Source: Branchiostoma lanceolatum (Eukaryota; Chordata; Leptocardii; Amphioxiformes; Branchiostomatidae). From it: DNA of 64,000 bases. A model generated the notes under the pieces. That model saw nothing but the letters and a program-made list of their open reading frames with translations. It was not told where the DNA came from and ran no database searches. The stretch covers positions 11,806,734 through 11,870,733 of the forward strand of contig NC_089738.1 of assembly GCF_035083965.1 (NCBI RefSeq). Direction: 5' to 3'. Numbering within the stretch: position 1 is the first letter of the stretch; every line of letters begins with the position of its first letter. The translations under genes were made by a program, and so were the position numbers. Shown here piece after piece: positions 3,982 through 52,489 of this stretch.

Positions 3982-5873
<1,892 letters not shown>

Positions 5874-7174: not shown

Positions 7175-8199
7175 TGTGAACATCATCATTTTTCTTTGCT
7201 CAAATAAAATGGTAATAACTCGTGAATGTTGTCCATTCATAATTTACTTGGGTGTAAATAGCTAACAAGAGAAATCCAAATTTTCCAAATTTAAGTATCT
7301 TTCGTATAATGGTGGGCCTGACATGATTTGGGTGTCGAGCTTTCAAATGTGGTGATAGGAAATGACACATAGCGATAGCTTTGCAAATTGCAGCCACGAC
7401 CGTTGTACACTATTAAAGAAAAGGCGCGCAACCACTTACGGGCTATGTTACTTGGACATTTAGGGGCCTTTTTACCGTCACAATACAATATCTACACCAG
7501 TTGGTTTGAGACAAAAGTAGAACACAACAATTACAATGTTGATTAAAACGAGTGTTTGAATCCGGGATCAAATATCGGAATATCACATCTTATAAAAAGA
7601 AAGGAACCAGCTACATAAAGTGGGACAGTACAGTCATTTCGTTTATCACACAACAATTTAATTCTATTTATATGTTTGTCTTTAGTACAGCTACCTGCCA
7701 GCGATTTATTTGATATGTATATATAGCCTTAGGGTTCTGTCACATCAAGTTGTCACAAATTGAGAGCACATGTACACAGTTATGTTGTGGCTGTACATGT
7801 GTAATGCAACATTAAGCTGCATTGTGAGAGAAATGTAGTCGTAGATAATTGTGGTTCTGGCACGTGGTCTCGCTGAAATCGTACGACTGTGAAAACAGTA
7901 TACGTAGTGCGACAAATGTCACTGCGCCTTTGGTAGGCTAATGAGCCGATTCTGTGTGGGCAGTGGCATACCCTATGGGCCACAAAATAAGTGTAACCAA
8001 CGTCAGTAAAATCATAATAAGGCCGTTCAGGTGGTACTAGTAACTCACTTAATAGATCATATCAGGACATGCCTTATGCTCCGATGTCACCTTAAACTTC
8101 TCAATGCATGGTGGGGAAGGGTGGTCAAATCGTAGGACAGGTAATTGCTGGAGAATAGGCAAGAAAGGGCAACCAGTGCTAACCACTAAATGATTAAAC
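7175..8199. other. intergenic, nothing recognised
   Basis: Low-complexity AT-rich DNA with several short open frames but no domain, codon bias or splice structure that I can support. From about 8030 it begins to resemble 9340 onward, the start of the duplicated leader region. Confidence 0.4.
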
Positions 8200-8409
8200 T
8201 ATTCATTTGTGGGACACAATATCGTCATCTGCATACAAGTACTGAAATGGTCATCGTTTGCTGTTGATCCGTTTTTTCTGCGTTGTTATCAGATGTTTTA
8301 TTATTAGTATTCTTCACTGCTTCATTCGTACCGCACGTGCAAACTGGTGGGCTCAACCTCGCCTTCTGACCTCATCCAGGCAAGCGTTTCTTAGTTCTTT
8401 GGGAAGACG
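8200..8409 (+). promoter_or_regulatory. leader copy 1 (5' UTR exon of divergent EF-hand subfamily)
   Basis: This stretch recurs near 9500-9726 and 15430-15645. Shared pieces in order are GGACACAAT, TTGCATAACGA-type text, TCTGCGTTGTTATCAGATG, TTCATTCGTAC, AACCTCGCC and GAAGACG followed by GTAGGT. The common donor (ACG before GTAGGT) marks it as a non-coding first exon and its promoter. Here it precedes only a single coding exon. Confidence 0.55.
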
Positions 8410-8500
8410 GTAGGTTCTCATTCTTACTACAACAGTCTGGGGTCTGGGGTAGATGTAATGGTATGGGTAAACCAAAGTACCATGGCGCCATCTTCTGCAG

Positions 8501-8611
8501 GAGTACAGCCGCTGGGTAAATGCTGTTGACAGGACCGGAGATGGTGCCGTGAGTGTCCAGGAATTCCTCGCCTTTGTGGAAAAGATTATAATTTTCAAGA
8601 AGTATGGCGAG
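8501..8611 (+). pseudogene. orphan EF-hand exon (relic gene copy)
   Basis: A 111-bp exon with clean borders (ctgcag acceptor, GTAAGG donor) encodes 37 aa with one EF-hand loop, DRTGDGAVSVQE, and the family signature YSRWVNAVD. It matches the second coding exon of the fused gene at 10420-10530 and 12139-12252. The leader exon lies only 91 bp upstream, so the leader intron, first coding exon and next intron appear deleted. No matching third or fourth exon lies before the next leader near 9500. It could be dead, or it could be an alternative upstream start that splices onto the next unit. It has no early in-frame ATG of its own. Confidence 0.7.
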
Positions 8612-9499
8612 GTAAGGGTGAATTGTTGAAAGCTAAGAAAAATAATGTATGCTCATTTGAGGACCTTATTTCATCTGAGATCTCCCAACTCTTGTTTGTT
8701 TCAGAGTTGCTAATAGACAACATACAGAAAGGCATAGGATTTCCAACTACATCACAGAATTATCTGCACCAAATCCAATATAGTGAATAATGTACTGAGG
8801 CCAGGCTTGATTTGGTCAAAGATTTATCCAATGTTGACCTACAGTGACCTTAGGGCGCTTTCACACTTGTCACAAATTGGGGACAATCGTGGCCGTGCGG
8901 TGCAAAATTTAGCCTGGCAACCATGCCATCGGGGGTTCGCCGATATCTCTACGGCGCTGGCTGTGATCTCCGCCCGCCCAGACAGATTAGTCCGCTCGTG
9001 GTGTGTTCACGGCCTTGAATCACGGCGAAAATGTCGATGGCAAGCTGCGAAATTCTATATGGCAGATAAGTCGGCTCAATCATAAGCATACTGGGCCCAG
9101 TAAAACACCCCTAAGCCGACCCCTAGAGACTAGCACCAAGTTATGCAAAATTTTAATTTTTAAAAGCTGCCTTGTGACTGAAAAGTAGATCCTTGTGGCA
9201 TATAGCCTAACTGATACCGTACAACAAAAAGGACAGTAGTGCGACGGATGCACCTACATCTTTTGGTATAGGCCAGGATGGCATCTGTATACTCCAGAAC
9301 ACGAATGTAACCAACGTCTGTAAAAATAAGATTTTCAGTTGGGAACTCACTCAACAGGTCATATCAGGAAACGTTACCTCAGCATGCCCAAAGTCACCTT
9401 TGATTTCGCACTGTAGGATTTACTCTCAGCAAATCTTACGGGACAGGTAATTACTAGAGAACAGGTAACAAAAGAGCAAACAGCCCTAACTACGAAATG
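8612..9499. other. spacer between relic and fused EF-hand gene
   Basis: No coding exon recognised. A patch at about 8840-9060 is richer in GC and may be an unclassified repeat. From about 9340 the sequence resembles 8030 onward, part of the duplicated leader region. Confidence 0.35.
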
Positions 9500-9726
9500 A
9501 TTAAACCGTTCATGTGTCGGACACAATGCCGCCATTTGCATAACGAGTACTAAGAAGGTCCTCGTCTGTTGTCGATCCAGTTTTTCTGCGTTGTTATCAG
9601 ATGTTTGCTTATCCTCCATTACTTCATTCGTACAAAACGCGCTGTACTGGCTGACGAACCTCGCCCTCTGTCCAGTTTTTTTAACTTACCAAGACATTTT
9701 TTAGTTCGTCATCTGAAGGGAAGACG
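9500..9726 (+). promoter_or_regulatory. leader copy 2 (5' UTR exon of fused EF-hand gene)
   Basis: Homologous to the stretches ending at 8409 and 15645. It ends in CATCTGAAGGGAAGACG with donor GTAGGT. It lies 205 bp before the acceptor (ttatatag) in front of the ATG at 9932, so it is the likely 5' UTR exon of the fused gene. Confidence 0.55.
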
Positions 9727-9931
9727 GTAGGTTCTCATTCTTACTACAGCAGTCTCGAGCATAGGGTTGTCGTAGATTGCTATGTTGTTGGTACCCTTCA
9801 AAAGCAGTTAGTAGATATATTTGCCTCACCGATTGGGTTTAAGAATTATTCTTCCTGAAATATATCAATATTTCTGAATTAATTTCCTCAATTTTGCCAC
9901 CTCATTTTTGTTCCTTCTACTTTATATAGTA

Positions 9932-12900
9932 ATGCATCCAACAAAGCTGATCGGTCTCCTAAACCTGTGCCCATTCATACAAATTGAGAAGGATGGCGGT
10001 GGTGCACTAACAGCTCAGGAGATCATCGACTACTTGGATTCTCAAGGCTGCAAGCTAGCTGAGAATGAGAAGCAGGTAACGTTACACGTACTATCTTTGT
10101 CAAGTGCTGCTTCTGTCGATATCAAGATCTTCACAGATGAAGTTAGAAGTTAAGTAAATGTGTGAAAATGTAGACAAAAATGATGTAAAGGTACGCCGGT
10201 AACCCAGCTAAAAGCCCTCGAGGTAGGAGCAGGAATGTATGGAATGTAAATGATGATGACTGCGCCATTTTATGTAACAATAGTAACATGACGCCACCTT
10301 GACAGGCCGTTCAGTGTAATATAACCAGCTGCTGCAGCGCCGCGTGCCTGCGAAGCTGGTGTGTTACGCCGAAGGGCGGTTATACCGGCTATACAGATAT
10401 AGATACAGTTCTTCTTCAGGAGATCCGTCGCTGGGTGAATATTGTTGACAGGAGCGGAGATGGTGCCGTGGGTACCCAAGAATTTATCGCCTTCATGAAA
10501 AAGATGGAAGTTTTCCGGAAGTATGACAAGGCAAGGGTGTTTTGTTAACTTTTAAATTACCAATGGGTTGTCAAAACAAAAGGTTGTAACATGAGAAGTG
10601 GTACGGGGCAGTGTTGGTCAACATGAAATTCTGCTTGTTTTCCTTTTGCAGCCAGTTTTGTTAGAAACACAAGTCTTTACAAAACAAGCTATGTGTTGTG
10701 TTTTTGTCTGAAATACTGAAATATCTTCCCAACCGACAATGACAGGATCGCACCGGCTTCATCACGAAGGATGAAATACGCCAGGGCGTGTCCGACATGG
10801 GCGCAGGGGTAGAGATGGAGGAGATGCTGATGAAATGTGACACTAACGGGGATGGAAAGGTTAGCAAGCAACTGTTATCATTCGCAGTATTTGCACTTGG
10901 CTCCCTCAAACAACTACATTTATGTGTGTATGGTGGTAATATGTAACCCGTTTGCCACCCAGCTGACAACAACTTGTTATGCTCCTCTCTGCAGTTATGT
11001 ATTATCATTTGTATCAATTTCGTTTGTTTCTACCCAATATTGACTTACATTAATTCCATCGTTTATATGATTTTGACTAGACTTCAAGCATTGGTATTTG
11101 TGTAATTGAAATCTGCGTTTTAATAAGTACTTTTAGCACTCGGTGCTGCCGATGTGCCAACCATTCAAAGGTGAAAAAAGTTCAAAGATCATAGGCTCAT
11201 AAACTTAATACCCCCCTCCCCATCCAAATTTACTGTAACTGTGGGCACTAATAAGCAAATATGGGAAACTGCTCAATGCTCAGCTCTTGTTGGCAGTTAT
11301 CTATCCATTAAAGAAAAAATAAAACAAGTATTGATAGTGATTGGAATATTGGAAGTTGTATATTCAATTTGGCTAGTTGAAAATAGAGTTTGATACCTTG
11401 TCCTTGTATTTGGCGTGCCTGTGTATGTGTGTGTGTGTTTGTGCGCGCGGTGGCTGTTTTCGCTTCAGGATATTCTAGTCAGCATCACCTCAGAACCTCT
11501 GGAAGGACTTTGAGGATATTGGGTATGTGGGTCGATTTTAGGAAGACGAAGGGCAAGGTTGATCATGGGCCCCCTAGCGGCTTTTCTTGGCTCGACGAAA
11601 ATCGCTAAACTTTTTGTTGGGTGAATGAAACTTCTATTAAGTCGTATTTAACTGCCCTGTACCCCCTTCCTGTTGTAGATCAACTACGAAGAGTTCATTA
11701 TACTTCTTCTGGCAATGGATCCCAAACTGTCAGGTCTACCGGAGGAAATAGACCCGCACGAACAGGTTAAACTATTCTTGCAAAGTGACAAGGATCACAG
11801 CGAAACAGTCACAGCTCAGGAGATCATCGACTTCTTGGATTCTGCCGGCTTGAAGCAAGCTGAGAAAGAGAAGCAGGTTCATGTGCTATCTTTGTCACTG
11901 GTTCTGTCGATATCAAGCTCTTCACAGAAAAAGTTAAGTAAATGTGTGAAAATGTAGACAAAACAAATAATGTAAAGGTTCGCCGGTGACCCAGCGAAAA
12001 GCCATCGAGGTAGGAGCAGGAATGTATGGAATGGAAATGACGATGACCGCGCCATTTTGTTTCACGTGAGCGTAGGTGGAATTAGCCAGGAGCACAAGTT
12101 ACAAAATAGCAGTCGTAACATGCTGCCATCCTCTGCAGGAAATCCGTCGCTGGGTAAAGATTGTTGACAAGAACGGAGACGGAGCCGTGTGTGCCGATGA
12201 ATACCTCAACCTGATGGGAAAGATTCAATATATGAAGATGCACTTTGACAAGGCAAGGGTGTACTGTTCTAACTACTAATGGTCTATCAGGAGAAAGTTG
12301 TAGTATAAGATTGTGGTATGGGGCAGTGAGGTCAACATCTTCTGCTTGTTTTCGTTTTGCAGCCATGCAGTATTGTCACAAACACAAGAACATTGTAGAA
12401 CAAGCTATGTGGTTTTCTTTGTTTTCTTTGTCTGAAATATCTTCCCCACCAACAAATACAGGATGGTAGTGGCTTCATCACCCGGGATGAACTACGCCAG
12501 GCAATGCTGCAATACGAAGATTCGGCAGAAATAGAGGAGTTAGTGATGGCATGTGACACTAACGGAGATGGAAAGGTTAGGCTTATAAACTTTCAAAATA
12601 CCCTCACCGAGGCTACTAAACAATTATGGAAAATTAGTGAATGCTGCTCTTCTTGGTAGTTGTCCATTCACGAAGGAAAATATCCCAGGAATTGATGGTG
12701 TTTGGAACTTTGTATATCATATTTGGTTAGTTGAAAATGGAGTTTGATGCATCGGCCCAACTTTTCAAACGGACATGACTCGTTTCCTCCACGAAAAACG
12801 GAGGTATTGTCTTTGATGTGCCTGTGTATCATCATCACCATGTGCCTGTGTATTGCTTTTGTGTGTATGTGCGTCTGTGTTTTGGATATTTGTGGTCAGT

Positions 12901-13207
12901 ATAACGGCAGCATTCCCTGGTACTACAGCAGAACGTCCCAGGAAGTTTGCAAGTTTAAAATGCTTAAAGATGACTTTGTTATCAGAAAAAGATACTGAAA
13001 TCCACGGGCAGCCCCTCCTGATTGTATCAAGGTATCAGAGATCTAGCAAGTTTGCGGTTTAGTTTGTTTTTCTATTTTGTAGTTTGTAGTTGACTGACTC
13101 GTGCTTTTTGTTGTCAATAAAGCTTCTATAATTCCACAACTAATCATTCTTTTCCTCTTTCCCGCTAGGTCAACTACGAGGAGTTCTTGGAGAACTTTCA
13201 GAATTAG
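9932..13207 (+). CDS. fused EF-hand protein, eight EF-hands (277 aa)
   Basis: Exons are 9932-10075, 10420-10530, 10746-10859, 11679-11876, 12139-12252, 12462-12575 and 13169-13207, all phase 0. They give 48+37+38+66+38+38+12 = 277 aa. Exon four is double: it starts as the last exon of one unit (INYEEF) and continues through FIILLLAM into the first exon of the next (DPKLSGLPEE). Loops are EKDGGGALTAQE (degenerate), DRSGDGAVGTQE, DKDRTGFITKDE, DTNGDGKINYEE, DKDHSETVTAQE (Gly6 lost), DKNGDGAVCADE, DKDGSGFITRDE and DTNGDGKVNYEE. So six of eight look able to bind Ca2+. The introns after the second and fifth exons start with GC. The unfused gene at 15999 is the best reference. No known name is assigned; function is inferred only as a Ca2+ sensor or buffer. 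Gene prediction alone does not show that the full transcript is made. Confidence 0.75.
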
Positions 13208-15429: not shown

Positions 15430-15645
15430 GTGTGCCATCCATTTGTTGGACACAATGCCCACATTTGCATAACGAATACTGCGAAGGTACTTTTTGCGGT
15501 CGGTCCGGTTTTCTATGTCAATATATCATGTCATTCGTACCAAACGCGCAAACTGAGTAGGTTCGTTCAACCTCGCTCTCTGTCCAGCAGGATCTGAGCT
15601 GATCCAGAGAAACGTTTTTTTAGGTCGTCATCTAAAGCGCAGACG
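15430..15645 (+). promoter_or_regulatory. leader copy 3 (5' UTR exon of four-EF-hand gene)
   Basis: Third copy of the leader region, with GGACACAATGCCCACATTTGC, TTCGTACCAAACGCGCAAAC and the end AAAGCGCAGACG before donor GTATGT. The next acceptor, atgtag, ends three bases before the start codon at 15999. Confidence 0.55.
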
Positions 15646-15998: not shown

Positions 15999-18253
15999 AT
16001 GGCAGCCCAACTGACAAAGGAACAACGCGACGAGATTAAGCAATTCTTGCTGAATGACAAGGATGGCAGTGGCACCGTCACAGCTCAGGAGATCATAGAT
16101 TTCACGTACTCTATGGGTGCCAATCTTACTGAAGAACAGATGCAGGTATTGTTTACATCTTTGCTTATGCCAATGCCAGTGTATTAACAGATGGAGGTCT
16201 GCAAATGTGTGCAAATGTAGCTTTGTCGTTATGGTACATGTTAGTCCGCAGCACTCACAGTAGAAGCGGGAATGTTAGTTAAAAAGTTAAAAAGTTAAAA
16301 TCCTCCCATCTCCGTTTCATAGCCCTGGGCCACACTGTTGTGCGATCACTGTAGCAGGGGGCTAGTCCACTGGCAGTGAAGTGTGTTTAACTTTCATACT
16401 GTTTCACAAGTATGTACCATTTTTATAAAGTCTTTGGTATGACTCAATGCGCCTCTTGTCCAGAGATGTTCTACCTGGGGCTTGAACCCCAGTCCTTCTG
16501 ATCCAAGTAATTGGAACCAGATGTGGTGAGAGACAAAGGCGCAGGCCACTACACCACAGGGACACCCCAGAAGCGGGAATGTATGGAATGAAAATGATGA
16601 TGAATGCGGCACTACATGTCACCTGAAATTATACGCCATGATCACTGGTTAGAAAGTAACGATGACAACATGACGTCATTCTCTCCAGGTGTACTGTGAT
16701 TGGGTAGAGTCTGTGGACAGTGGCGAAGACGGAGCCGTCAGTGTCGAGGAATTTCTCGCCGCGATGGAAAGAAACGAATTGGTTGATACACCGCTTGATT
16801 TTTTCAAGACGTTTGACAAGGTAACAGTGTATTGTTTAGAATTTTCAATAACAGGGTCACCAGGACAAAATTTTGTTTTGTTTCAAATTGAGGTTTATTT
16901 AAATGTATTGGATACTTCTGCTTGTTACCGTCATGAAAAATGGAGGTATTGATTTTATCTGTCTGTTTTTGCTTCCAGCTGTTTGTAGTTAGGGTCACCT
17001 TAGAACCACTGGCTGGATTGTATTATATAAATGATATTTGATATATGGGCAGGTGTTGGGAAGACAAATGTCAATGTCGATTTGGTTCTCCCGGGTGTCT
17101 GGCCTTGTTTTCGTTTTGTAGCCAGTCTTGTCAGAAACACAAGAACACTAGTACTTTTAACAGGCCATGTATTTTTTTTGTCTGAAATATCTTCCCTACC
17201 AACTAATACAGGATGGTAGCGGCTTCATCACCAAGGATGAAATACGCCAGGGGATGAAAGAAATGGGTGAGAAGCTGACCGACGAAGGTGTGGAGGATAT
17301 AATGAAAGACTGCGACACTGATGGAGATGGCAAAGTGAGATTCATTAACATACTAACCCCATCACCATTAAACGCCTGCTTTATCATTAGAAAAATACCG
17401 AAACCAATGATTAGCCCCACTCGATTACAACACTATACAAAAAAACGTATGCTAGCCCTTATTGTATTGTATTAGTAATTAGGATGTTAAGTTTTATTCT
17501 ATACTTCTATTTTGTATTATGTTTAAGGATTCTTACCATACTGTGCACCGTGTACAATTATCGTGCAGAAAAGTTGTTCTTCTTTAATCGTGGGTGCTAA
17601 TTACCTCCATGAAATGCCATGGAGGTTATGTTCTCAGCAGCTTTTGTGTGGCTGTGTGTGTGTGTGTCTGTTGATAAACAAATTAACTCGAGAACGGCTG
17701 AATGGATTGGTTTCATACTAGGTATGATGGCAGGTTGTGACAAAAAACTAGAAATGATTTGATTTGGGGCCTTCTACCTGCTTTTCTATGTACTGCAGCG
17801 GATCTTCCGGTTTTGATATCTAGTGTTCTGGATAATAATATGGTCACGATCTTTGGGTGGTAGAAAGCTCTTGTGCTCGGAGAGAAGTGACGTAAGTTTG
17901 GGTCCCCTAGTTTTACTTAATAGTTAGAACTTAGTACACATCTATCTAGTAGTTAGTACTCTAACCGTGACCACTGAACAATTACAGCTGATAAAGCAAT
18001 CATGTTATTCTTGACAATCTACTATCAACGAATATTTGGATTCATATTGGCTTGTTGAAAATGGTGTTAGGTACATCTTCACAACTCCTTTATACATGGT
18101 AGTGATGATTCTGTATTGAGCAAATGTATTTCCGCATCTCAATAAAAAGCCACAATCGTTCTGTTCATCTTTCCGCTGCAGATCAACTACGAAGAGTTCG
18201 TGAAGGGCTTCGCCAATCAGGAAGAGGAAGAAGAAGAGGAAGACGAAGAGTAG
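15999..18253 (+). CDS. divergent four-EF-hand protein with acidic tail (157 aa)
   Basis: Exons are 15999-16145, 16689-16820, 17212-17334 and 18182-18253, phase 0, giving 49+44+41+23 = 157 aa. Loops are DKDGSGTVTAQE, DSGEDGAVSVEE, DKDGSGFITKDE and DTDGDGKINYEE. Loop 2 has Gly at ligand position 3. Helices diverge strongly from calmodulin (MAAQLTKEQRDEIKQFLLN at the start, FFKTFDK before loop 3). The C-terminus continues past the calmodulin end as GFANQEEEEEEEDEE, a troponin C-sized protein with an unusual acidic tail. Exon borders match calmodulin. It is the unfused sister of the gene at 9932. A SINE sits in intron 1. A polyadenylation signal is at 18632. Likely a Ca2+ sensor; I do not recognise a named orthologue. 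Confidence 0.88.
16276..16568 (-). mobile_element. tRNA-derived SINE with 14-bp target duplication
   Basis: On the minus strand, A box TGGTGTAGTGGCC (complement at 16544-16560) and B box GGGTTCAAGCCCC (complement at 16477-16490) mark a tRNA-like head. The other end has repeated AGTTAAAA units. AGAAGCGGGAATGT stands on both sides (16262-16275 and 16569-16582). The matching introns of the fused gene have the uninterrupted site (GCAGGAATGTATGGAATG near 10230 and 12016), so this insertion is younger than the unit duplication. Confidence 0.85.
17590..17910. repeat. dispersed repeat fragment in intron 3
   Basis: Begins with a small hairpin (TTACCTCCATGAAATGCCAT then GGAGGTTATG) and continues with a GTGT run and AACTCGAGAACGGCTGAATGG, ending in GGGTCCCCTAG. 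Relatives occur at 19855-20000, 20100-20250, 11460-11600 and inside 59000-59260. Family not assigned. Confidence 0.5.
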
Positions 18254-18850
18254 CTCTGTATTCGTCAGACGATTCTTGAGTTCAAGGATATGAAGGAAGT
18301 TGCTTCCAAGCATTCACGAGTAGCTTTAGGTGTCGTTGTGGTATCTGTCGAGGTGGCTAGGTGTTCCCGAACTGCACGAAAACGAATTCAGATTAATTTC
18401 CATATCATTTGACACTGTTATTGTATGATATACAGTACAAGTATCAAGGCTAACATGTTTTAATGCACATTTTGGTGTGTTTAATTGGCTAACTGCTGGT
18501 AAATGTAGTCTAGAAAGAAACAGTTTGGATGTATTCCGCAAAGCTACGGTATGAAGACTTCTTTGTTTACGACTGATGAAACTAATGTTTACTTCTATGC
18601 ATTGTTGGGGTCACCTTTTGTGCTGTGATAGAATAAAATGGTTGAACTGAACATTTTTTTAAATCTTTCTTTCTGTTTACTGACTAAAGTTAGGGCTTCA
18701 TTGTTTGCTTTGGTTGAATAACAGGGTTGAACTGCAATCCTGGTCAACGTTATGTGTTTCAGAGTGATAGAATTTCGTACATAAAAGCCAAAGTAGTAAA
18801 ACCATGAGAACACTACGTTGATGAAAGTTAGACATCCAGGTAGTAAGATA
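18254..18850 (+). other. 3' UTR of four-EF-hand gene
   Basis: CTCTGTATTCGTCAGACGAT directly after the stop is shared with the fused gene's 3' UTR. So is the block around the polyadenylation signal at 18632-18637 (GAATAAAATGGTTG). Confidence 0.55.
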
Positions 18851-18927
18851 CGCCAAAAATAATTACTCAAGCAACTGGATAAAGTTTTCAAAACTTTATC
18901 CAGTTGCTTAAGTAATTATTTTTGGCG
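18851..18927. repeat. near-perfect 77-bp palindrome
   Basis: Two 38-bp arms, starting CGCCAAAAATAATTACT, flank a single central C at 18889. Only one mismatch (C/T at the eleventh base from the arm's inner half) was seen by eye. Such a structure can form a cruciform or a very stable hairpin. Confidence 0.9.
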
Positions 18928-20610
18928 CATGAGAACACTACTTTACAACAAAGTGTGAAGTCTTTGGAGCATGAAGTTAAATAGTAGAATATGGTCTTTC
19001 ATGGTATTCAATACATGTTTAGATAGATCGCCCACACTGCAATTTACCTGAGACGTCGAATACAGAAAGTATGAAGCTGCTTGACGACATACAGCTATTG
19101 GGACGAATACTGGGATTACCCCAGGGCATGAGTGTTCCTTTCTTAAAAGCCATACCGGTAATTACGGGTCAGTGGGTGTCACAAGTATCTTTAGCTTTCC
19201 GGCACACAGCCTAGATTATGTAACTTCTGTTCAAGATTTAGAAGGTAGTACTAACTCACACACACTCTCTTCCTCCCTCCATCTTCACATTATAAAGTCA
19301 TATTTGCACCCAGTAAGATATAACGTTACGCCACACTAGTTCCCCCGGGAGCTTTTGAAAGACCTGTCTGTGCTAAAGAGCAGGCATGTGGGCTGACCAA
19401 TAGAAATCCAGAGTCAGCGCAGGTGTTTACCAAACAGACGAGACCACTTGTTTACTCGAGATGATTGACAGGTTTTGTGATGACTCGTTGAACCAAGTGA
19501 TGTCTGACCTTTGCACTCTCATGGGTCTTCGTTTGTTGCTGTTTGTTTTCATGTATATATGCTTTGTTCGATTCGGTGGCCAGCGGCTAAGTGTACCAGT
19601 AAGATAGTACTAGACTAGTATATTGTCTTTCTACTCAACTACTAACGTTACACCGAAACTCATCAGAATACTTCCCGAGCAACACGCAGAAGAGGTCTCC
19701 GGCTGCGTATTAGACTTATTACACACCTGTGGCTGTGAATCAAGTGAAGATGTATAGTCATGCACTATGGTAATGCTTTACAAGATGTGCGACAATAATA
19801 CTATACAGCTATGTCTAGTTACCTTCGCCCGAATATGTTTTCGGTCTTGCTATGGTGAAGTGGCTATGGATGCATGTGTGTTTAATACAAACAGCATAGC
19901 TCGAATAGTTGTGAATGGATGTTCATGATATTTGGTAGGTGGGTAGGTGTTGGGAAGAGAGAGGGCAATTTCGATAATGAGCCTCCTGGTGGCCTCCTAC
20001 GATACTGCATGTAACTAGGTATGTATGTATGTGTGTATGTACGTGTGTATGTATGTGTGTATGTACTATGTATGTATGTATGTGTGTATGTATGTATGTA
20101 TGTATTTGTGTGTGTGCTTGTATATCAGCATAACTCGAGAAGCTGTGGACGGGGCCTCATGATATTTTGGTAGGTGAGTAGGGGTTGGGAAAACAAAAGT
20201 GAAACTCGATAATGGGCATCCTAGCGGTTTCTTACGGTGCTCCAGCAGAAATTCAATGTTTGGGGTCTAGTTTTCATGTTTCAAATGCGTGTTTACTGAT
20301 AATGCATTTTAAAAACATTCAACTGTCCTGGCCAGCCATCAGTATTTTGAGAAGATCCCAAATGAAGTAAACAGTGACGTCTTTATCTAATGTATTTATT
20401 GACAGTTACCTTGCGTTAGACAGCTATTATCATCTCATAAATTATGTATTTCAGCAACACGTGGTTTTGGTTGCTAGTACACAATTATCCACCCGCGCTA
20501 CATAATCATCAGATCAGAACAAAACAAGACTGTATTCATACTGACACGCGAACTGTGAACGCGACGTACCTCTACCCAAGACTTGTGACTCAACTTACTA
20601 TTTCATCAAC
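18928..20610. other. intergenic with repeats; upstream region of next EF-hand gene
   Basis: No coding sequence recognised. Two diverged copies of the 17590-type repeat lie at 19855-20000 and 20100-20250, separated by a GTAT-rich microsatellite at 20019-20119. A CCAAT-like GACCAATAG lies near 19397. The last 120 bp (GCGAACTGTGAACGCGACG) resemble the upstream regions of the genes at 25198 and 29066. Confidence 0.45.
20019..20119. repeat. (GTAT)n / (GT)n microsatellite
   Basis: About 100 bp of imperfect TATG/TGTG tetranucleotide repeats. Confidence 0.85.
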
Positions 20611-23600
20611 ATGGCTGGGACAAAGGTACTTATATTCACATAACAGTTGTAATATATACAAATTTCGAAAATCATATAACTGAATGCATCTTCCTGCTGT
20701 TTAAATTTCTGGACAATTTTTTCCATTCTTAGAGTATGCCATTCTGTGAATCAGAAAATATCTTTCTCTGTCTTTTTTTCTGTAACTAGTTGGAAAAATG
20801 TTAACGGTGTAAGATGAGAATGAAGAAGAACGGTACATATTTTGGAGATAACATTGAACAAAAAAGCTGTAGGATATACACGGATATTATGCTATGGCAA
20901 TAAGGTATTTGAGTGTTAACAAAGCACGTTTATGAAAACAATGTTAAGTAAAACGTTGTCATACCACAACAAGATATGAGTGTCATCGACAATTTGCACG
21001 TTACCCCACGTAACCCTGTAATGATTTTGATCTCTGTTGTTGGTCGTTAATAATTCATTGAGAATTGTCATACAAAAAAGACGGTAGGCTGGAAACTTTG
21101 TCCTTGTGAGCAAACCAAGATAGGAAAAATGACTATTCGCGTTTTTGTTCTAATTTTTTGCTGATATATCAAATTGTCATGTATTTGATGTACTTTCAGA
21201 AAAAAAACACAGAAAATGGACAGATCGACCAAATTAATCAAGGAGAGGTTTCCTTTTCAAATGATAAATGACGCATACGTCTTTGCGTGTGATTGTCGAT
21301 ATGCTTTTTGTCACGCTAACTCAGGGACACACGAGCAGTGACCAACTGACAGAGGAACAGATCGCTGAGTTCAGGCAGGTTTTCTCGATGTTTGACCAGA
21401 ACGGTGACGGCCACATTACCACTGCTGAGCTGGGAAGTGTGCTGCGAGCTCTGGGGCAGAACCCGACAGACGCCGAGCTGCGGGTACGGCCATGCTTTGT
21501 TCTGCATGTTTGTTTACTCAATAGAATGCTTGATCAAGTTATTTCATAATACCAATGAGAACTGAGAAAAATGAAGAAAAAGAATGTAAATAAAAGAATA
21601 AAAAAGATACCAATAAGAAACAAGAACTACAAAATATGATAAAGCTAATGAATATGGCGACATTGATACCTTAAATGGCTTAAAAAAGAATACTAGCAAT
21701 CAACAATGAATGTTGAGGAGAAACCAGCAATGTAAGAACGTACTGCAGAATAGCAAGACAAAAGAACAATGGTATTAATGAGAAATGTTACATTTTGAAC
21801 ATATAGATATCACTTTTAAGTGATAAAAAAGTTTAAAGTTGTAACATTTTTTTGGTCTCTGGATCTTTGTTCATCTGTGCAATCAACAGACTCAGATGGT
21901 TTTCGTTAACTAAATGAGATCCCACTACCAAAATTATATTCTGTAAACTACCACAGCCAAGATCCGTATCACATATGTGAACTACTGATTAATATGCATA
22001 TTGATATTTCGTAGGACATGATAAGAAAGGTTGACGTGGATGGAGATGGAACCACCAACTTCTCGGAGTTCCTGCGCCTTGTGGGTCGGAAGAGCTCCAG
22101 AGAGAAGACAGAGCAAGAGCTTCAGGATGCGTTTCATGCATTCGACAAAGTAAGGCCGAGGAAATAGAGTGTTTCCGGTTACCCGACCGAGCCTAGCAAA
22201 AACCTGCCAACCCTAGTCTTATTTTGTTGACCCGCTAGCACTGTCCTGATGCTGTCTAGCGTTGCAATCTTAAACAGTATTTCTTGGGTCACTTCGACTG
22301 CACTTTAAAAAAAAGAAGAAAGAGAACCCTTACCCAGCGACACTAATTTATGAGTACTGTAACCGGAATCACAACATTTTCTATTATGCCTAACGGCATG
22401 TCATGAATTGTTTGATAGTACCTAGCCTCCTGTACAACCCTTCTGGGTGGCAGGCCAGTAGCTTTTTTCGCCGATTTGCGCTGTTTTCTGATTGCTCGTG
22501 TATTGCTCTGATATATATGCTTCTAGAGTTGGCGCACTAATCAAGCTTGGTCATATTAGAACACTAACTTGCGAACGATTAGAAATAGCGCAAATCAACC
22601 AAAGGGCCATAGAAAGCCACCAGCCATCCAGAATGTCTGCGTATAAGGCTGGGTAAGGATGATACCACAGAACCAAAGGCAATGGGTGTTTAAAGCCATA
22701 TTTTGTATGCAAAGTAAACTTAAAAGTCGATTTTCTTTTGTACATGTAACTAAATCCCGCTTTAGAGTTCTCATTTAGGTTCATTTCAGCACCAAGGACA
22801 GGGAAGTAACATTATCATTGACATTTAAAAAGTCCATATACGTTCAATGTAAGAATACGATTTTGGGGATCGATGGGACACCACGTACAAAGGACGAGAC
22901 AAAAGCTAAGAGGTGTAACTGTAGTATGATATCTCTGAGTGTATTGTCTGGGAAGACTCAGTGGACTGGTTTGAACCGGCTGGGCTATACCATTCTATGC
23001 ACATGTGCGGGGCTGCAAATTGGTACCTCGCACTATAGCCAAGCAGAAATGAAAAATAAAACACAAAAATGAAAATATTTGACGGACATGCAACCACTCT
23101 CGAACCACTAATTGCAGTACTGTCATTGGTTGGACAGTTAATTGTGATGGACAGTCAGTATCGGTCTATTTATCTATCTTGCTGCTCAACGTTTCCAGGA
23201 TGGCAGCGGGTACATCACCCAGACAGAGCTGCGTCACGTGGTGTCCAGCCTGGGGATGGAGTTGACGGATGAAGAGCTGATGAAGATCATGCGGGAGGCC
23301 GACAGGGATGGAGATGGTCAGGTGAGGACCAGGGACAGAACTATGTGTCTCATTTTGTACGATGTGACCTTCTGTACTACTTACGCAGTCATGTGGAATA
23401 TAGATTACGCAGCCTTTTATAATTTTCCTGGTTATGATATTTGACCATGTACAATGTCCGGGTAGAAATGGGGATCTGGCAGATCGGCGATTCTACCGGC
23501 AGAGATAGCGATCAGAGTCTCTGTCGGGATCTCTACTGGTAACGTTACACGACAGAATTACCGATTGTACTAGTTAAGATCCTGATCGTGATCTCTGTAC

Positions 23601-25197: not shown

Positions 25198-27706
<2,509 letters not shown>

Positions 27707-29065: not shown

Positions 29066-31511
29066 ATGGCTGGAACTAAGGGAAGAGTAAGTACTCATAA
29101 ACCTGTGTTTGAAACTTGTTGCTGTTAGACTGGCGAGTGATCTCAGACCGTAGTAGCGTAGTAGTACTGGCGTAGTACAATTTAACTTGTCGGACGAGTT
29201 TTGTCGGAAGAGCTTAGTGTGGCCACCATATTGGATGTCAAGCACAAAAGCAAGACTATGAAGATTCTACTGTAATCTAATGGATATATGTTCTCCTTAA
29301 GCCGATACCTAGGTACCTATTTCACGACCATTGTTTTCTCAAGACTCCAATATCACATGATATACGATCAAAGAGGTTGGACCCCGGGTTACATTTGGCT
29401 GCGGTGTTGTAATATGATTTGATATTTGTCTGCCACAGTTATAATCATATAAAGGGTCATCAAGGCCAAATATTCAAACGTTTTGTAAATGAGTAGTGGC
29501 CAATAACGATACAAAGATATCTTAAACCAGATAACCAAATGCATCAGAATCAAAATGTTTGGCTACAGACTTGATATATATTAACGCGTCAACAGGGAAA
29601 GATGGGCGGCGCTGAGAGAATGACAGAAGAACAGATCGCCGAGTTCAAGGAAGCCTTCTCCTTGTTCGACAAAAATGGGGACGGGAACATCACGACTGGT
29701 GAGCTGGGAACTGTCATGAGGTCGCTGGGTCAGAATCCAACTGAAGCCGAGCTTCTGGTATGTTCTTCTTTTGATCTGCATAACTTGACATAGCAAGATA
29801 TTCTTTCAATTTATCATATGCATGTAATATCCACGTGATTTGACTGATGTCAAAAGATATCTAAGCCAACGTGTGTAGAATAGAAAGCAATCAAGAAAAC
29901 TATGATATATGGGATATCTAGACAATAGGAACCAAGACATTTATCATTTAGCAACTTTGAAATATTAGATATTACAATTGTACTTTCTGTCTTGACATGA
30001 TTTATACTTGTTCATTGGCCGTCACTGTCAACACGAGTTACATATCTTTGTCTACTCAGAAACGTAGTACTACGTGATAACACATACACTTGGAGAGGTC
30101 TCTAGAGGCCCGTAGAGAGAGTTCGAATCACATCAAACAATTAACGTGTTTTACAGGATATGGTAAACGAGGTTGACGCGGACGGAAATGGCACCATAGA
30201 TTTCCCAGAATTCCTCACCATGATGGCTCGAAATAAGAAGGATAACAATCAGGAAGAGGAACTGCGGGAGGCGTTTAAAGTGTTTGACAAGGTAGGGCAT
30301 GAGCGGTACAGGGGCAATTGGTGCGCAGCCGAGCATGGCCGCCGAACTTCTCCAGATAATGGTCGGGAGACTGTCGTTAGTTTGTCGGCGCGGTTACCTA
30401 CTGGTCTTTAAACGTCCTCTGCGCCAGCCGACTTTGCATTTGACATATCAAACTCGGTATAGTAATTTTTATTAGATGCGACCAGAGGAGTGCACTTAAG
30501 CTAGCATAGAATAGACTCCACTTTGGTTCGGGGATGAGGTCTTGAATTTGTGACAAGCGCTCAATAAAGCTTAGGTGAATATTCCCCCGTTTGAAGCTGA
30601 CTTATCGTTACATCTTTTATGATATTTTATTCTCTGAATTCAAAGTCTGCCAATCCTGAGTGTCATTTTGAAATTGTTGTCTTTTTGCTTTATAAAAATT
30701 TCAGATGTATATTTCTCACGCAGGACATACAATAATTAATTTGCTGATTGACAGAGTTTACAGAGTGAAATTTTCATCACTTTTCTAAATATGGAATTTT
30801 TGATATCAACAGGATGGCAACGGCTACATCAGCGCCGCGGAGCTGCGTCACGTGATGACCAACCTGGGAGAGAAGCTGACAGATGAAGAGGTGGATGAGA
30901 TGATCCGAGAGGCTGATGTGGATGGAGATGGCCAGGTTAGGGAAACTTACAATTTCGAGCTGTTTTGACACTCCACAGTTAATAACATAATAATTCATAT
31001 CTCTTGATACCTCCTTGCATTACGCTATTGTTTTCGGCGTGTCTGTTTGCCTGTCTGTTTTCCATATGCTGGTCACATTCACCGGAGAGAAACAGGGTGT
31101 AAAGGTCAGAGTTGCAAGAGTGGCAGGAAGTCAAGTTCAGAATTGCAAGAATTAGTGATTTATCAACCTTCAAGTAATAACTGACAGACATGCCAGGCCA
31201 TGGGTAAATTAAAGAACTAACTAGTTCACTGTTTCAAGGTGCTATGAGAAAAATGCAAACACGTAAACGAGAACTATTTCTGAAGCAGTCAAACAATGTT
31301 GAAAGAAGACTTAACATGCACCAATGTGTAGTAGCTTTTAAAAAATATGTCAAATCATAACCTCCTTTGTCAAATAATTATAGATTTCGTTTCCGAGCTT
31401 CTGATCTAATGGCTCACTTTGTTATGTCATAGAATGTACATGTAATCTTTATTTCAATTTTTCCCGTAGGTAAACTACCAAGAGTTCGTTTCGATGATGA
31501 CGGAGAAATAA
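29066..31511 (+). CDS. calmodulin-like protein with MAGTKGR first exon (160 aa)
   Basis: Exons are 29066-29086 (MAGTKGR), 29596-29757, 30157-30291, 30813-30935 and 31470-31511, phase 0, giving 7+54+45+41+13 = 160 aa. Exon 2 opens [20 protein letters not shown], so the N-terminus before the calmodulin core is 15 residues. Loops are [36 protein letters not shown] and [12 protein letters not shown], all with full ligands. The linker [12 protein letters not shown] is more basic and Asn-rich than in calmodulin. Helix 6 to loop 4 is almost identical at the DNA level to the gene at 25198. An internal ATG in exon 2 (29602) could give a shorter product. The 3' UTR holds a 114-bp copy from the next gene. 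Confidence 0.9.
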
Positions 31512-31844: not shown

Positions 31845-31958
31845 ATTGAAGAAGAACTGTAAAGAGGACGAACTGCGCGATTCCTTCAAAGTCTTTGACA
31901 AGGTCGGAAGTTTCTCAGAAAATGTTACTCTGCATACCACAATAGTTATCGTTGGAAA
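31845..31958 (+). pseudogene. partial exon-plus-intron copy from the gene at 33732-37248
   Basis: This stretch matches 35670-35783 almost base for base. It carries the end of that gene's second exon ([17 protein letters not shown]) and the first 57 bp of the following intron, including the GTCGGA donor. It lacks the exon's first half and any acceptor at its edge, so it is a recent segmental copy rather than a usable exon. Confidence 0.85.
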
Positions 31959-33731: not shown

Positions 33732-36700
33732 ATGGCAGAACAAATGACGGAGGAACAGATCAGCGAATTCAGAGAGGCTTTCGAACTGTTCGACAAAGAC
33801 GGCAATGGCTCCATCGATGCGGAAGAGCTCGGAACGGTCATGAAAGAACTTGGGCAGAACCCAACTAAGTCGGAGCTACAGGTGTGTAAAAACACTTTGT
33901 ATTTTTCCATGTCAACGCGGAGGTAGCTTCGAAAAGGGAACTGTACAATGTATCAATCAAGTCAAAGTTTAGCAACACTAACACCCCCTTTTCATTGAGG
34001 CGGCTACCACTGAGCGCGACCAAAAATTCCATAAGTGGTTCCAATAAATTTCACTGATAAAGAATTGTATTTCATAAGTATTCTGTGTTTTGTTGTCTTT
34101 CAATCATATTCATACATCACGAATCATCTTAATCAAATCTATCAAATTTTGGTCGTTTAACGGTCTCTATCCAATGGAAAGGGGGCCTAACGTACCAACA
34201 AACAACGTGCGATTGGGTATCATCTAGGCGGGCAATGATGGGCTTTTAGCCGCCAACATCTTCTCACGGTCCCATACAATATGAGGCAATGTTTTGAATT
34301 GGTGACCCATGTGATGTGTTACACCCAAACAACAAAGGGCTTCACATCGGCGGCGTGAAAAGACAGACTCGTTGCGTGCCTGCAGATTATCATTTTAATT
34401 GCCGCAGGCCCATAGCCGGGTAAACAAGTCTTGTTATATCGACGGTGCATGCTTCATGTTTGGTTAAGTGTAAAATAAGACCATCATGTATGTGCTAAAA
34501 CTGGTCCATTTTCAGACTAAAGTGTATATATATACAGCACAAACTATTTTCAATTTGTAAATGTTCTGTAGTGTTACGCTTGATATATTTACTTGTAGAA
34601 AAAACACACTAAGCATTGGTGAGATCCAAAAGTCACACAGCTTGTCACAAGACCGAACAAACATAATGAATGGATAAATCTCTTTAGTTTCAAGTATGTC
34701 ACCCATAGAAAACAATCGTACAAACATGAAAACACATTTAAACTATACATACATGTACAACAACAGGAAAACTGTTTTGTATCTGATAAATAGCAATTTG
34801 TAAACACGGTCGGTATCATTTCCAACGTAGGTTGCATGGGGGAGGGGTGTGGAATGCTCCCTTGGGACACATGGGTTAGTGTATATTTGGCATCAAGGTC
34901 AGTTTCTATAAGTGTAGTCCTTTATTTCTGACAAAGAAAATGAGGTGCGAAGGACGGATATCCAATGGACATAACTATAGAAATTCATATTGAATCGAAG
35001 TACAGTAGAACAAGAACAGAACAAATAATTCAATATGTCAAATTATATCTTGTGCTAATTTGTTTGATGGCTTCGACAAGGGAGGTCGAAATTTTAAAAA
35101 GTGGAATTGCTTGAAGCAACGAAATAATTGCAGTCGCAAAATGGCAAAGGGAAGGCCAATTAGCAAATACCCAAAAGGCACGAGAAAGGCAGAACAAAAT
35201 TTGTCTTAGATTTGTTTTTTCTATCTACTTGTCTATTTATTGAGATTTACTAGTACCACATTTGCGGAAGGATTGACATAACAGGTGACTATCACCTTTC
35301 CAACATGTCAACCCAGACCAGATTAAACTGTAAGGTTGATCAACTGACACTGGGAAGGACATCTGTTCTTATTGATAAGTGTGGTGCTTTCTTTAACTTG
35401 CTCGAGATGGGAGTCTTAAGTCCCATGCGAGAGGACAACCCTAACCAGGGCAGCTCAAAATAGGCGTCTTTCTCTGGGGCATAACAATGGAGTCTCCCAG
35501 GGATTCGAACCCAGAACCTTTAGATTTGAAGTCAGCAACCCTAGCCACAAGACAACCTTGCCATTCTCAACTACATGTTGTGTTTTCAACAGGACATGAT
35601 TAACGAGGTGGACACGGACGGCGACGGCACCATAGATTTCACCGAGTTCCTGACGATGATGACCAAGAAATTGAAGGAGAACTGTAAAGAGGACGAACTG
35701 CGCGATTCCTTCAAAGTCTTTGACAAGGTCGGAAGTTTCTCAGAAAATGTTACCCTGCATACCATAATAGTTATCGTTGGAAACGGGCGTCTAAAGATCT
35801 GAAGTTAACACTTAAGAAAGTAGGGAATGCACGCAGAGCGAACATTGGGCATCAAACAATACTCATACACACAAAGTAGCTTTCAGGGCCATTTTGTATC
35901 CTTCTAATAACCTATGAATACCGTTTTTTTCTAAACAACCTGCCTTTTTGTTACCTGTCATTTTATTTGTCCAAAAGAAGGATACACTAGTGGCCCCGGC
36001 GATTTGCTGATTGATGGAGAATACTTATACATCTTTTCAGACAATTTGTTATTCCCGGTGATTGATCTGTCATTATGATAGTACATGTACTATCTACGCA
36101 AGTATGCACGTTATATAACATTATCAAGTACACGACTACATTAGAGCTTTGGGAATTTGTCACTCCAAACATCATCATCATCATCAAGGGTTACTCCCAT
36201 ATGACCCCATCAGGGGCAAAGTGTGTGTGGGGGGGGGGGAGGTCCCGGGCTAGGTCGGGCAGGCCTCCAGCCCGGCACGGAAAGACTCAGCGGTGGGGGC
36301 CATCACAACCGTGCCAGGCAGGGCATTCCACTGCGAAATTGTACGGTGGGGATATGAGTATTTGTATGTGTCTGTACTGGCGTTGATAGTTTGGAATTTG
36401 TCTGGTGTAGGATGGGAATGGCGTCATCAGCGCCGAGGAGCTGCGTCAGGTGATGTCCAGCCTGGGAGAGAATCTTACAGATGAAGAGGTGGATGAGATG
36501 ATCAAAGAGGCTGACAAAGATGGAGATGGCCAGGTAATACCAGAAACTAGGTCATCTTACACTACTCTTGATATGCAAAATCAACAACAAAGGATTAGTG
36601 ATCATTGGCTGACTAGTATCTGATTTTACTCATTTGCCAGCAATTTTAAAGCGAATCTAGATAAGTAAAGTAAAGCAGTCATCCTCAATTGAGGTGAAGC

Positions 36701-38287: not shown

Positions 38288-40082
38288 CTTTGCTTTTGGC
38301 GTTATGATCTGCACGAACTCTTCATATTGGATTACACCATCACCGTTCTTGTCCGCCATCTGAAATATTGAAACCATCAACATGTTATAAAACCATGTAT
38401 AAATCGAGGTGAATTCAAATCATTTCAACTCCTTTTGTTAAAAAATATCGTAAACGGTACAAAAAATTGTTGTTGTTTCCTTGATGCCACGTAATGCCAT
38501 CTAATTCGCTTGTAAGTTGTATTTTTTCATCTTTCGTCATATTTTCCAAGGGATAGGATACATTATACTCACCAATTAGAGCAAGGATATGATGTTCTAA
38601 AATGACCATAAAATTGTATTTTGTTACCTTGACCATATTGTCGATGTACTTTTCGTGGTGTATCATGCCCAGGGATTTTATGGCCTCTTTTAACTCTGCT
38701 TTGTCCAAGACACCATTGTTGTCCTGCAGATGACAAATGTAACAGTCAGCGTTTTTTGCGGGCGGTACCGGTGTAGTTTCCGCTTCGTCGTGGCCGACAA
38801 GTACAAGTTTCTACACCTCTACTTTAGCTGTGCGACACACCTGATAATTCTCGAGTGGCCAGCATTTAACTTACAGAATTTAAAAGCTTTTGTTGCTTTG
38901 TGAGACAGAAGACAATAATAGCGTTCTATAACAAATTATGCCAAGGTGTTTGATGTTGATTCAAGTATATTATACATTTTTTGCAAGCCATGAGAAAAAA
39001 ACACAAACGTCATTCGATTTTGATACGCTGAATTAAAGTGTGTCAAGAACGATTTGTTTAGATTAAACTTTGCAACGGTCTAGATCTCGAGTAACACGAA
39101 ACAGTATTTCTAGTCAACATATCTAACGTCTACTACATAATTCCACCAGTGTACATATGTCCACCACCTTGAAAATGTACGTACCTGGGGGTGCTGCACT
39201 AGAGATCTCTTAAACACACTGTTATTCATGATCAAAGTGGCGTATTTATGTAACCCAGCAGATTAATGTTAATGGAGGTTACATTAAGATAAGTGCGTGC
39301 CTACCTTGTCATGCTTCTCAAACGTCTCTCTCACGAACTTGGGGTCTGGCGTCATCACGTGTTTGAGGAAGAACATCAAGTTCAAAAACTCCTCAAAGTC
39401 CAGCATGTTGTTTTCGTCGATGTCAAACGCTACCATAGATTGCTGTGGTAACGGGAATCCAATAATTCAAATCATTTGGTGGTTTGCACAATGCTTCAAT
39501 TTGTATCCAAATTTGTGGCGACTGCCGTATAAAACTGAAGTTTGAAGATCTTTACACCCAAAGACCACAACCGTTATAGCATCGTCCATAAGATACTGTA
39601 TACCTTTCTCCGTGTATAGTTTCATACATATGTCATGGTAGAGTTTGCAATCTGCCAGAGTTGCCGATTTTGTCGGTACAGATCGCGATCTGGATCTCTG
39701 TCGACACAATTAGCGATTCTACCGGTAGAGATCGCGATCTGAGTCTCTGTAGACAGAGATAGCGATCTGGATCTTTGTCAATACAATTGGTGACTCTACC
39801 GGTAGAAATCCCGATCAAAAATTTTGATATATTCGCTTAAAAGACAGTCAGAATTTTTCGACTTCGAGGACCGAAGGATTCACAATCGTTGCCAAATTGA
39901 ATGTTGGTCTGCCCTACCTTTAGAGCCAGGTCTGAGGGCATGGGTTGGATCCCGACTGACGTCATGACCTTTCCCAGCTCACGTGACAGGAGGAAACCAT
40001 CTTTGTCTTTGTCTAGCATCTCAAAGCATCTCTTGAACAAAGCCTTTTGTTTCTCATTAAACTTTGGGTTATCGGCAGCCAT
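38285..40082 (-). CDS. divergent EF-hand protein (157 aa)
   Basis: Minus-strand exons are 39918-40082, 39305-39442, 38628-38723 and 38285-38359, phase 0, giving 55+46+32+24 = 157 aa. It opens MAADNPKFNEKQKALFKRCF. Loops are DKDKDGFLLSRE, DIDENNMLDFEE (Asn in place of the conserved Gly at position 6), DKDNNGVLDKAE and [12 protein letters not shown]. The linker is longer (FFLKHVMTPDPKFVRETFEK) and the end is QIITPKAK. Exon borders within loops 3 and 4 match the calmodulin pattern, so it is an old relative despite the opposite strand. Copies of the GATCGCGATC repeat lie in intron 1 and against the stop codon. No named orthologue is recognised. Confidence 0.85.
39110..39290 (-). repeat. dispersed ~230-bp repeat, reverse copy
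   Basis: Complement of the family at 25815-26045 (GGGTTACATAAATACGCC, AGAGATCTCTAGTGCAGCAC, GGTGGACATATG). It lies in intron 2 of the minus-strand EF-hand gene, about 15 bp from exon 2. Confidence 0.55.
39645..39840. repeat. GATCGCGATC-type dispersed repeat, copy 3
   Basis: Shows an internal unit of about 49 bp, roughly CGATTCTACCGGTAGAGATC then CGATCTGAGTCTCTGTAGAC, repeated nearly three times. Lies in intron 1. Confidence 0.6.
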
Positions 40083-51457: not shown

Positions 51458-52489
51458 ACGTATACGCTACTTGTCGGGGTACATACGCTACAGGTCGGGG
51501 TACATACACTACAGGCCGGGGTACACACGCTACAGGTCGGGGTACATACATAACAGGTCGGGGGTACAGGTTGGGGTGCTTGGCTGCATTGGATGGAAAG
51601 GGCCATTCAAACGCTACAAGTCGGTCCCCGACCTGTTATGTATGCACCCCGACTTGTAGCGTTTGAATGGTCATTTCGGGGTACATACGCTACAAGTCGG
51701 AGTACAGGCTGGGGTGCTTGCTTGATTGGCTGCATTGGAAATGACCATTCAAACGCTAAAAGTCGGGGTGCATACATAACAGGTCGGGGACATACGCTAC
51801 AGGTCGGGGTGCATACGCTACAATTCGGGGTACATATGGTACAAGTCAGGGTACATACGCTACAAGTCGGGGGAAAAACGCTATAGGTCGGGGTACATAC
51901 GCTTCAAGTCGGGGTACATACGCTACACGTCGGGGTACATACGCTTCAAGTCGGGGCACACAAGCTACAGGCCGGGGTACATACGTATATGACACAGGTC
52001 GGGGTACATACGCTACAGGTCGGGGTACATACGCTACAGGTCGGGAAACATACGCTACAAGTCGGGGTACATACGCTACAAGTCGGGGTATATACGCTAC
52101 AGGCCGGGGTACATACGTATACGCCACAGGTCGGGGTACATACGCTACAGGTCGGGGTACATACGCTACAGGTCGAGGTACATAGGCTACACGTCGGGTA
52201 CATACTCTATAGGTCGGGGTACATACGCTACAAGTCGGGGTACATACGCTACAAGTCGGGGTACATACGCCGTAAGTTGGGGTACATACACTACAGGTCT
52301 GGGTACATACACTACAGGTCGGGGTACATACGCTACAAGTCGGGGTACATACGCTACAGGTCAGGGTACACACGCTATAGGTCGGGGTTCATACGTATAC
52401 GCTACTTGTCGGGCTACATACGCTACAGGTCGGGGTACATACGCTACGGGCCGGGGTACTCACGCTACAGGTCGGGGTACATAGTTAAA
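51458..52489. repeat. 21-bp minisatellite (~1 kb)
   Basis: Units of about 21 bp share CGCTACAGGTCGGGGT followed by ACATA, with point variants (CAAG for CAGG, GTTCAT, CACGTC) and longer units of about 27 bp carrying an extra GTATAC. Twenty-one is a multiple of three, so several frames stay open over long stretches without being genes. A unique segment (51560-51600) and inverted material interrupt the array near its left end. Confidence 0.92.
51603..51670. repeat. hairpin inside minisatellite
   Basis: CCATTCAAACGCTACAAGTC plus two bases (51603-51624) is exactly complementary to 51649-51670. The 24-bp spacer carries minisatellite text in reverse orientation. Confidence 0.88.

Follow-up and report, generated by a model that had tools for sequence, protein, structure and literature searches.

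The question raised by this locus is whether two neighbouring calmodulin-like genes have become a single gene encoding a protein with eight EF-hands. The locus belongs to a plus-strand gene array in the window, i.e. the whole stretch of 64,000 bases of lancelet DNA that was analysed. Exons of six calmodulin-type genes were matched in the array at 500-2273, 4338-5489, 21346-23324, 26095-27401, 29620-30938 and 33744-36536, and a divergent subfamily, consisting of a remnant (unit 0), the fused gene (units 1 and 2) and an unfused paralogue (unit 3), sits between the second and the third of them. Cephalochordates have a multigene family of calmodulins (Karabinos and Bhattacharya 2000, as cited in PMC4987107). 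The fused gene resembles calmodulin and this family in its EF-hand pairs and is flanked by calmodulin-type genes on both sides.

Base-by-base retracing of the seven exons (Table 1) yielded a stop-free frame of 277 amino acids followed by a stop codon on the plus strand between 9932 and 13207. The preliminary description of this DNA had proposed the exon order A-B-C-(D+A)-B-C-D, and the retracing bore it out, although the frame requires two GC-AG introns and a weak donor at the double exon (DA), which were not mentioned there. Exon 11679-11876 was also confirmed to serve both as the terminal exon of unit 1 and as the first coding exon of unit 2, with Met 11715 inside it. All seven exons are multiples of three and every intron is in phase 0. 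The phases are those of the unfused gene at 15999, as had been claimed, but the exon sizes are not: the coding bases in unit 1, unit 2 and the gene at 15999 number 144, 162 and 147 for exon A, 111, 114 and 132 for exon B, 114, 114 and 123 for exon C, and 36, 36 and 69 for exon D, respectively.

Table 1. Positions of the fused gene's exons and of related features in the window (a slash in a donor sequence marks the exon end)
Feature	Position	Strand	Description
Conserved block upstream of unit 1	9721..9746	+	26 bases; donor ACG/GTAGGT
Exon A1	9932..10075	+	144 bases; start codon at 9932; degenerate EF-hand loop 1
Exon B1	10420..10530	+	111 bases; EF-hand 2; GC donor AAG/GCAAGG
Exon C1	10746..10859	+	114 bases; most of EF-hand 3 and first half of EF-hand 4 loop
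Double exon D1+A2 (DA)	11679..11876	+	198 bases; INYEEF (unit 1), bridge IILLLA, unit 2 from Met 11715
Bridge IILLLA	11697..11714	+	18 bases; probably former intron 5' of exon A2, acceptor AG now GG
Exon B2	12139..12252	+	114 bases; EF-hand 6; GC donor AAG/GCAAGG
Exon C2	12462..12575	+	114 bases; most of EF-hand 7 and first half of EF-hand 8 loop
Exon D2	13169..13207	+	39 bases; EF-hand 8 end and stop codon TAG
Unfused paralogue, unit 3	15999..18253	+	exons 15999-16145, 16689-16820, 17212-17334, 18182-18253; 157 aa, acidic tail
Remnant unit 0	7992..8627	+	upstream region and exon B

By the Pfam cut-offs, the 277-aa product is a member of the EF-hand superfamily. It matched EF-hand_7 (EF-hand pair, PF13499) with an E value of 1.2e-40 and 138.1 bits (cut-off 30) and EF-hand_1 (PF00036) with an E value of 9e-41 and 134.9 bits (cut-off 25.4), and four stretches of the product passed individually for EF-hand_7 and likewise for EF-hand_1. 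Its sequence matches in the PDB were mostly calmodulins or calmodulin fusions among the best 60 of 377 distinct sequences. Calmodulin has four EF-hands, whereas the fused gene holds two divergent units in one frame, and with 277 amino acids, eight hands and subfamily exons that matched the calmodulin query at 27-47% where matched (5 hits), it is not calmodulin proper. The exons of the calmodulin-type genes matched the same query, in register, at 47-100%.

The canonical EF loop of 12 residues has a defined residue pattern at positions 1, 3, 5, 6, 8 and 12, and the eight loops were checked at these positions. All six positions fit in five of the eight loops (loops 2 and 4 of unit 1 and loops 2, 3 and 4 of unit 2). 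The remaining three have one miss each: in unit 1, loop 1 carries Glu at position 1 instead of the first ligand Asp and loop 3 carries Thr at position 5, and in unit 2 Glu replaces Gly 6 of loop 1. Judging from this check, our guess is that five to seven calcium sites of the predicted protein would work. An AlphaFold model of the double exon alone (66 aa) placed a helix at residues 3-13, across the bridge, but with a mean pLDDT of 62.3 and a pTM of 0.34 it is too weak for reliance.

At the genomic level, the evidence supports an in-frame joining of two calmodulin-like tandem genes through loss of the intervening DNA, because unit 2 is without the conserved block and its donor, the region 10860-11714 holds no 3' counterpart, and the acceptor is gone. 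The 26-base block precedes units 0, 1 and 3, being identical at 8404 and 9721 and having three mismatches at 15640; no further copy was found elsewhere in the window, where the mean expected by chance is 0. It reads like the closing part of a putative 5' leader (UTR) exon with its donor. Neither pattern search nor alignment detected a copy of the block or of the upstream region in 10860-11714, ahead of unit 2. When the regions 5' and 3' of units 0, 1, 2 and 3 were compared with 10860-11714, the best E value was only 0.38, whereas the best matches among those regions themselves reached 6e-56 (units 0 and 1), 8e-18 (units 3 and 1) and 5e-27 (3' regions of units 2 and 3). No counterpart of the 3' regions common to units 2 and 3 was found in 10860-11714 either. 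The C-D intron of unit 1 can be aligned with that of unit 2 (11248-11394 with 12613-12748, E 1e-15), and the sequence preceding exon D1 is therefore unit 1's own intron. Taken together with the missing block and flanks, this argues that the deletion spanned from inside exon D1 to just before the ATG at 11715. An eight-EF-hand protein made by in-frame tandem fusion had been proposed in the preliminary description; the fusion stands on these genomic signs, and the protein is predicted from the open frame.

At the joint itself, the acceptor AG expected ahead of the unit 2 ATG reads GG. The stretch 11694-11714 matched the pre-A intron of unit 3 with P 0.015 (2000 shuffles), although the match is short and comes from one of two uncorrected tests; the shuffle test with the pre-A intron of unit 1 gave no detectable match (P 0.34). 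Since the unit 3 intron is matched and the acceptor AG has become GG, the IILLLA bridge is probably a former intron. The open joint was rejected as significant in itself, since 2971 of 9240 simulated joins (32%) between a D tail and pre-A sequence were open and in frame.

A deletion fusion is the best reading of this DNA, and the predicted eight-hand protein is plausible. We give a probability of about 0.6 to the full reading, in which one promoter would drive a seven-exon mRNA for the 277-aa protein; the sequence anatomy, the missing block and acceptor and the open frame are observed, and from them we infer transcription, splicing, protein and function. A deletion or unequal crossover within the calmodulin-like array would have removed the 3' end of unit 1, the intergenic DNA, the promoter and leader of unit 2 and most of the intron preceding A2. 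It would have joined GAAGAGTTC of exon D1 to the intron about 18 bases upstream of the unit 2 ATG, possibly at a short TTC that appears to be common to the exon and the intron. The intron remnant would now code for IILLLA, which would stand in for EF-hand 4's hydrophobic exit helix and run on into unit 2. With the unit 1 promoter alone driving the mRNA, the protein would have two calmodulin-like halves with eight EF-hands; its most likely role would be to sense or buffer calcium as a tethered double unit in which five to seven sites work. A more ambitious version, which we put forward only tentatively, is a lancelet-specific tethered double sensor with one promoter and an intron-born bridge, in which phase-0 exon skipping would let a single locus provide four-EF-hand as well as eight-EF-hand proteins.

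The two halves have probably been under some constraint, though a weak one, since their split, as far as can be read from the divergence of the units. Over 130 aligned codons, units 1 and 2 showed a dN of 0.323 and a dS of 0.47 (NG86). Their dN/dS was 0.69, with a bootstrap interval of 0.44-1.16 and a value of at least 1 in 7% of 300 replicates. The bootstrap medians were 0.39 (0.22-0.58) for units 1 and 3 and 0.62 (0.37-1.0) for units 2 and 3, and YN00 gave 0.441/0.48, i.e. about 0.92, for the latter pair. Between units 1 and 2, K was 0.22-0.29 in exons A-C vs 0.15-0.20 in introns, all of these being low estimates because the aligner tolerates gaps freely (it brings even shuffled introns to 0.73-0.75 identity), and the coding parts therefore look no better conserved than the introns. 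Strong purifying selection on the fused gene is thus unsupported by the dN/dS and K values. The probability that neutral evolution would leave both halves free of stops was 0.115, 0.064, 0.0185, 0.0105 and 0.004 at distances between units 1 and 2 of 0.15, 0.20, 0.28, 0.35 and 0.47, respectively (simulation with 2000 runs per distance), which makes two open halves improbable under neutrality at the larger distances. Exons A-C differ in net length by multiples of three throughout, as against one of six intron differences from unit 1, an argument which is partly circular because the frame guided the choice of exon ends. Of 48 loop positions, 15 differ in amino acid between units 1 and 2, and of 82 positions outside the loops, 42 differ. 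The family probably evolves fast. The conservation of the open frame dates from the split of units 1 and 2 and not from the fusion, and neither the age of the fusion nor its use follows from it.

The seven-exon mRNA of the deletion fusion would depend on splice sites of very different quality, and the rival explanations draw on them. GC-AG splicing is required after B1 and B2 (at 10530 and 12252), where both GC donors lie at the 99.88th percentile of 2559 plus-strand GC sites, their remaining positions being near the consensus. The DA donor, CAG/GTTCAT, had the lowest score (-2.65) of 31 array donors and lies at the 72nd percentile of all GT sites, which is a warning and not a verdict since the matrix weights are human values and some boundaries of the calmodulin-type genes are uncertain. 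Of the 31 donors, 13 belong to the divergent subfamily, with its leaders counted in, and 18 to the calmodulin-type genes; the boundary was shifted to a neighbouring GT in 10 of them. Scores were also obtained, outside this set, for three alternative donors located six bases 3' of B1, DA and B2. If the intron after the double exon were kept, a stop would follow 26 residues on, and if the B1 or B2 donor were unused, it would follow after 5 or 8 residues (6th and 9th codon past the exon, respectively). Because all exons are symmetric (phase 0), exon-skipped frames are open as well: A1-B1-C1-D2 and A1-B1-C2-D2 (135 aa each), A1-B2-C2-D2 (136 aa) and the form skipping only DA (211 aa). These open forms and the weak DA donor would suit a single transcription unit whose main product skips DA, by joining C1 to D2 or by mixing B and C exons, and is an ordinary four-EF-hand protein of about 135 aa. 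However, 12 of 15 positions at the DA acceptor are pyrimidines, and unit 2 has kept its frame and canonical loops 2-4, some of which would then be unneeded, so that we consider this explanation unlikely. The weak donor may also mark a locus in decay, where both genes were damaged by the fusion and the frame has simply stayed open so far. The degenerate loop 1 in both halves, the dN/dS near 0.7 with an interval reaching 1, the exons diverged at least as much as the introns and the adjoining remnant unit 0 all point the same way, but the locus is without a stop or frameshift, both B donors hold the same strong GC consensus and five loops are intact. Decay ranks above the skipping of DA in our estimate and is nevertheless rather improbable.

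The locus might also still consist of two genes, unit 2 starting at Met 11715 from its own promoter in the C-D intron of unit 1, and unit 1 ending elsewhere, e.g. at an intronic poly(A) signal. Met 11715 has the same context (gcaATGG) as the gene at 15999, and ATTAAA and AATAAA occur at 11307 and 11318, respectively, but unit 2 is not preceded by the block and upstream region common to units 0, 1 and 3, and we regard this arrangement as very improbable. The lowest probability is given to an assembly artefact: tandem arrays are prone to misjoining of two copies, but the window is without N, and units 1 and 2, with 28% of their coding bases different, are no collapsed pair of near-identical copies.

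The preliminary description had called a fusion of this kind unusual and perhaps undescribed. No prior report of this fusion was found among the literature matches listed, which cover few subscription papers, but fusion of tandem paralogues and eight-EF-hand proteins are both already known, and the lancelet gene is plausibly a new example. By its sequence, it fits the pattern of such fusions, as two paralogues are read in one frame and the stop and upstream region that normally separate them are missing. LpS1, from the sea urchin Lytechinus pictus, is an eight-EF-hand protein from a doubled four-EF-hand Spec-type gene. The predicted lancelet protein can be likened to it, by description, in having eight EF-hands from doubling; the lineage and the parent genes are different. 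According to the available part of PMC4250520, mitochondrial aspartate/glutamate carriers also have a domain with eight EF-hands in one chain, but there the EF-hands are joined to a mitochondrial carrier domain, in contrast to the two calmodulin-like units here. The available parts of PMC9199173 and PMC5460883 describe the origin of new genes by gene fusion or by exon shuffling through tandem duplication. As in those cases, neighbours would have been joined or duplicated; the differences are that the partners here are paralogues and that an intron remnant has apparently turned coding. If transcribed, the fused gene would be a compact, readable case of array recombination lengthening a protein, and it would provide a natural tethered calmodulin-like pair for testing cooperativity. 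The missing block, the lost acceptor and the putative intron-derived bridge can all be read against the unfused neighbour. The fused gene opens no new class of system.

Unit 0 is apparently the product of another deletion within the same array, and its exons A, C and D were not found by tblastn. Its exon B is open and has a good GT donor (GAG/GTAAGG); it was rejected by inspection as an additional exon of the fused gene because, when spliced to the acceptor before 9932, it reads GAG TAA, a stop. A lone partial exon at 31849-31911 (21 protein letters), which matches exon B of the gene at 33744-36536, is a further fragment of the array. Where units 1 and 2 are aligned, intron A-B is by eye more alike in its 5' half (10076-10245 and 11877-12045, respectively) than the exons are, which hints at local gene conversion or a constraint on the intron. 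Intronic AATAAA motifs occur at 13116 and 18141, about 53 and 41 bases before exon D of units 2 and 3, respectively, and the aligned site of unit 1 reads AATGAA.

No tRNA was found in the window. About 34 copies of a 21-base tandem repeat (51753-52483) overlap long ORFs on both strands, for which no Pfam match at E 0.01 was obtained. Minus-strand EF-hand coding pieces at 38303-40082 adjoin the array and suggest a further EF-hand gene in the opposite orientation. An inverted repeat of 41 bases at 18848-18930, with one base between the arms and 95% complementarity, is possibly a relic of a mobile element.
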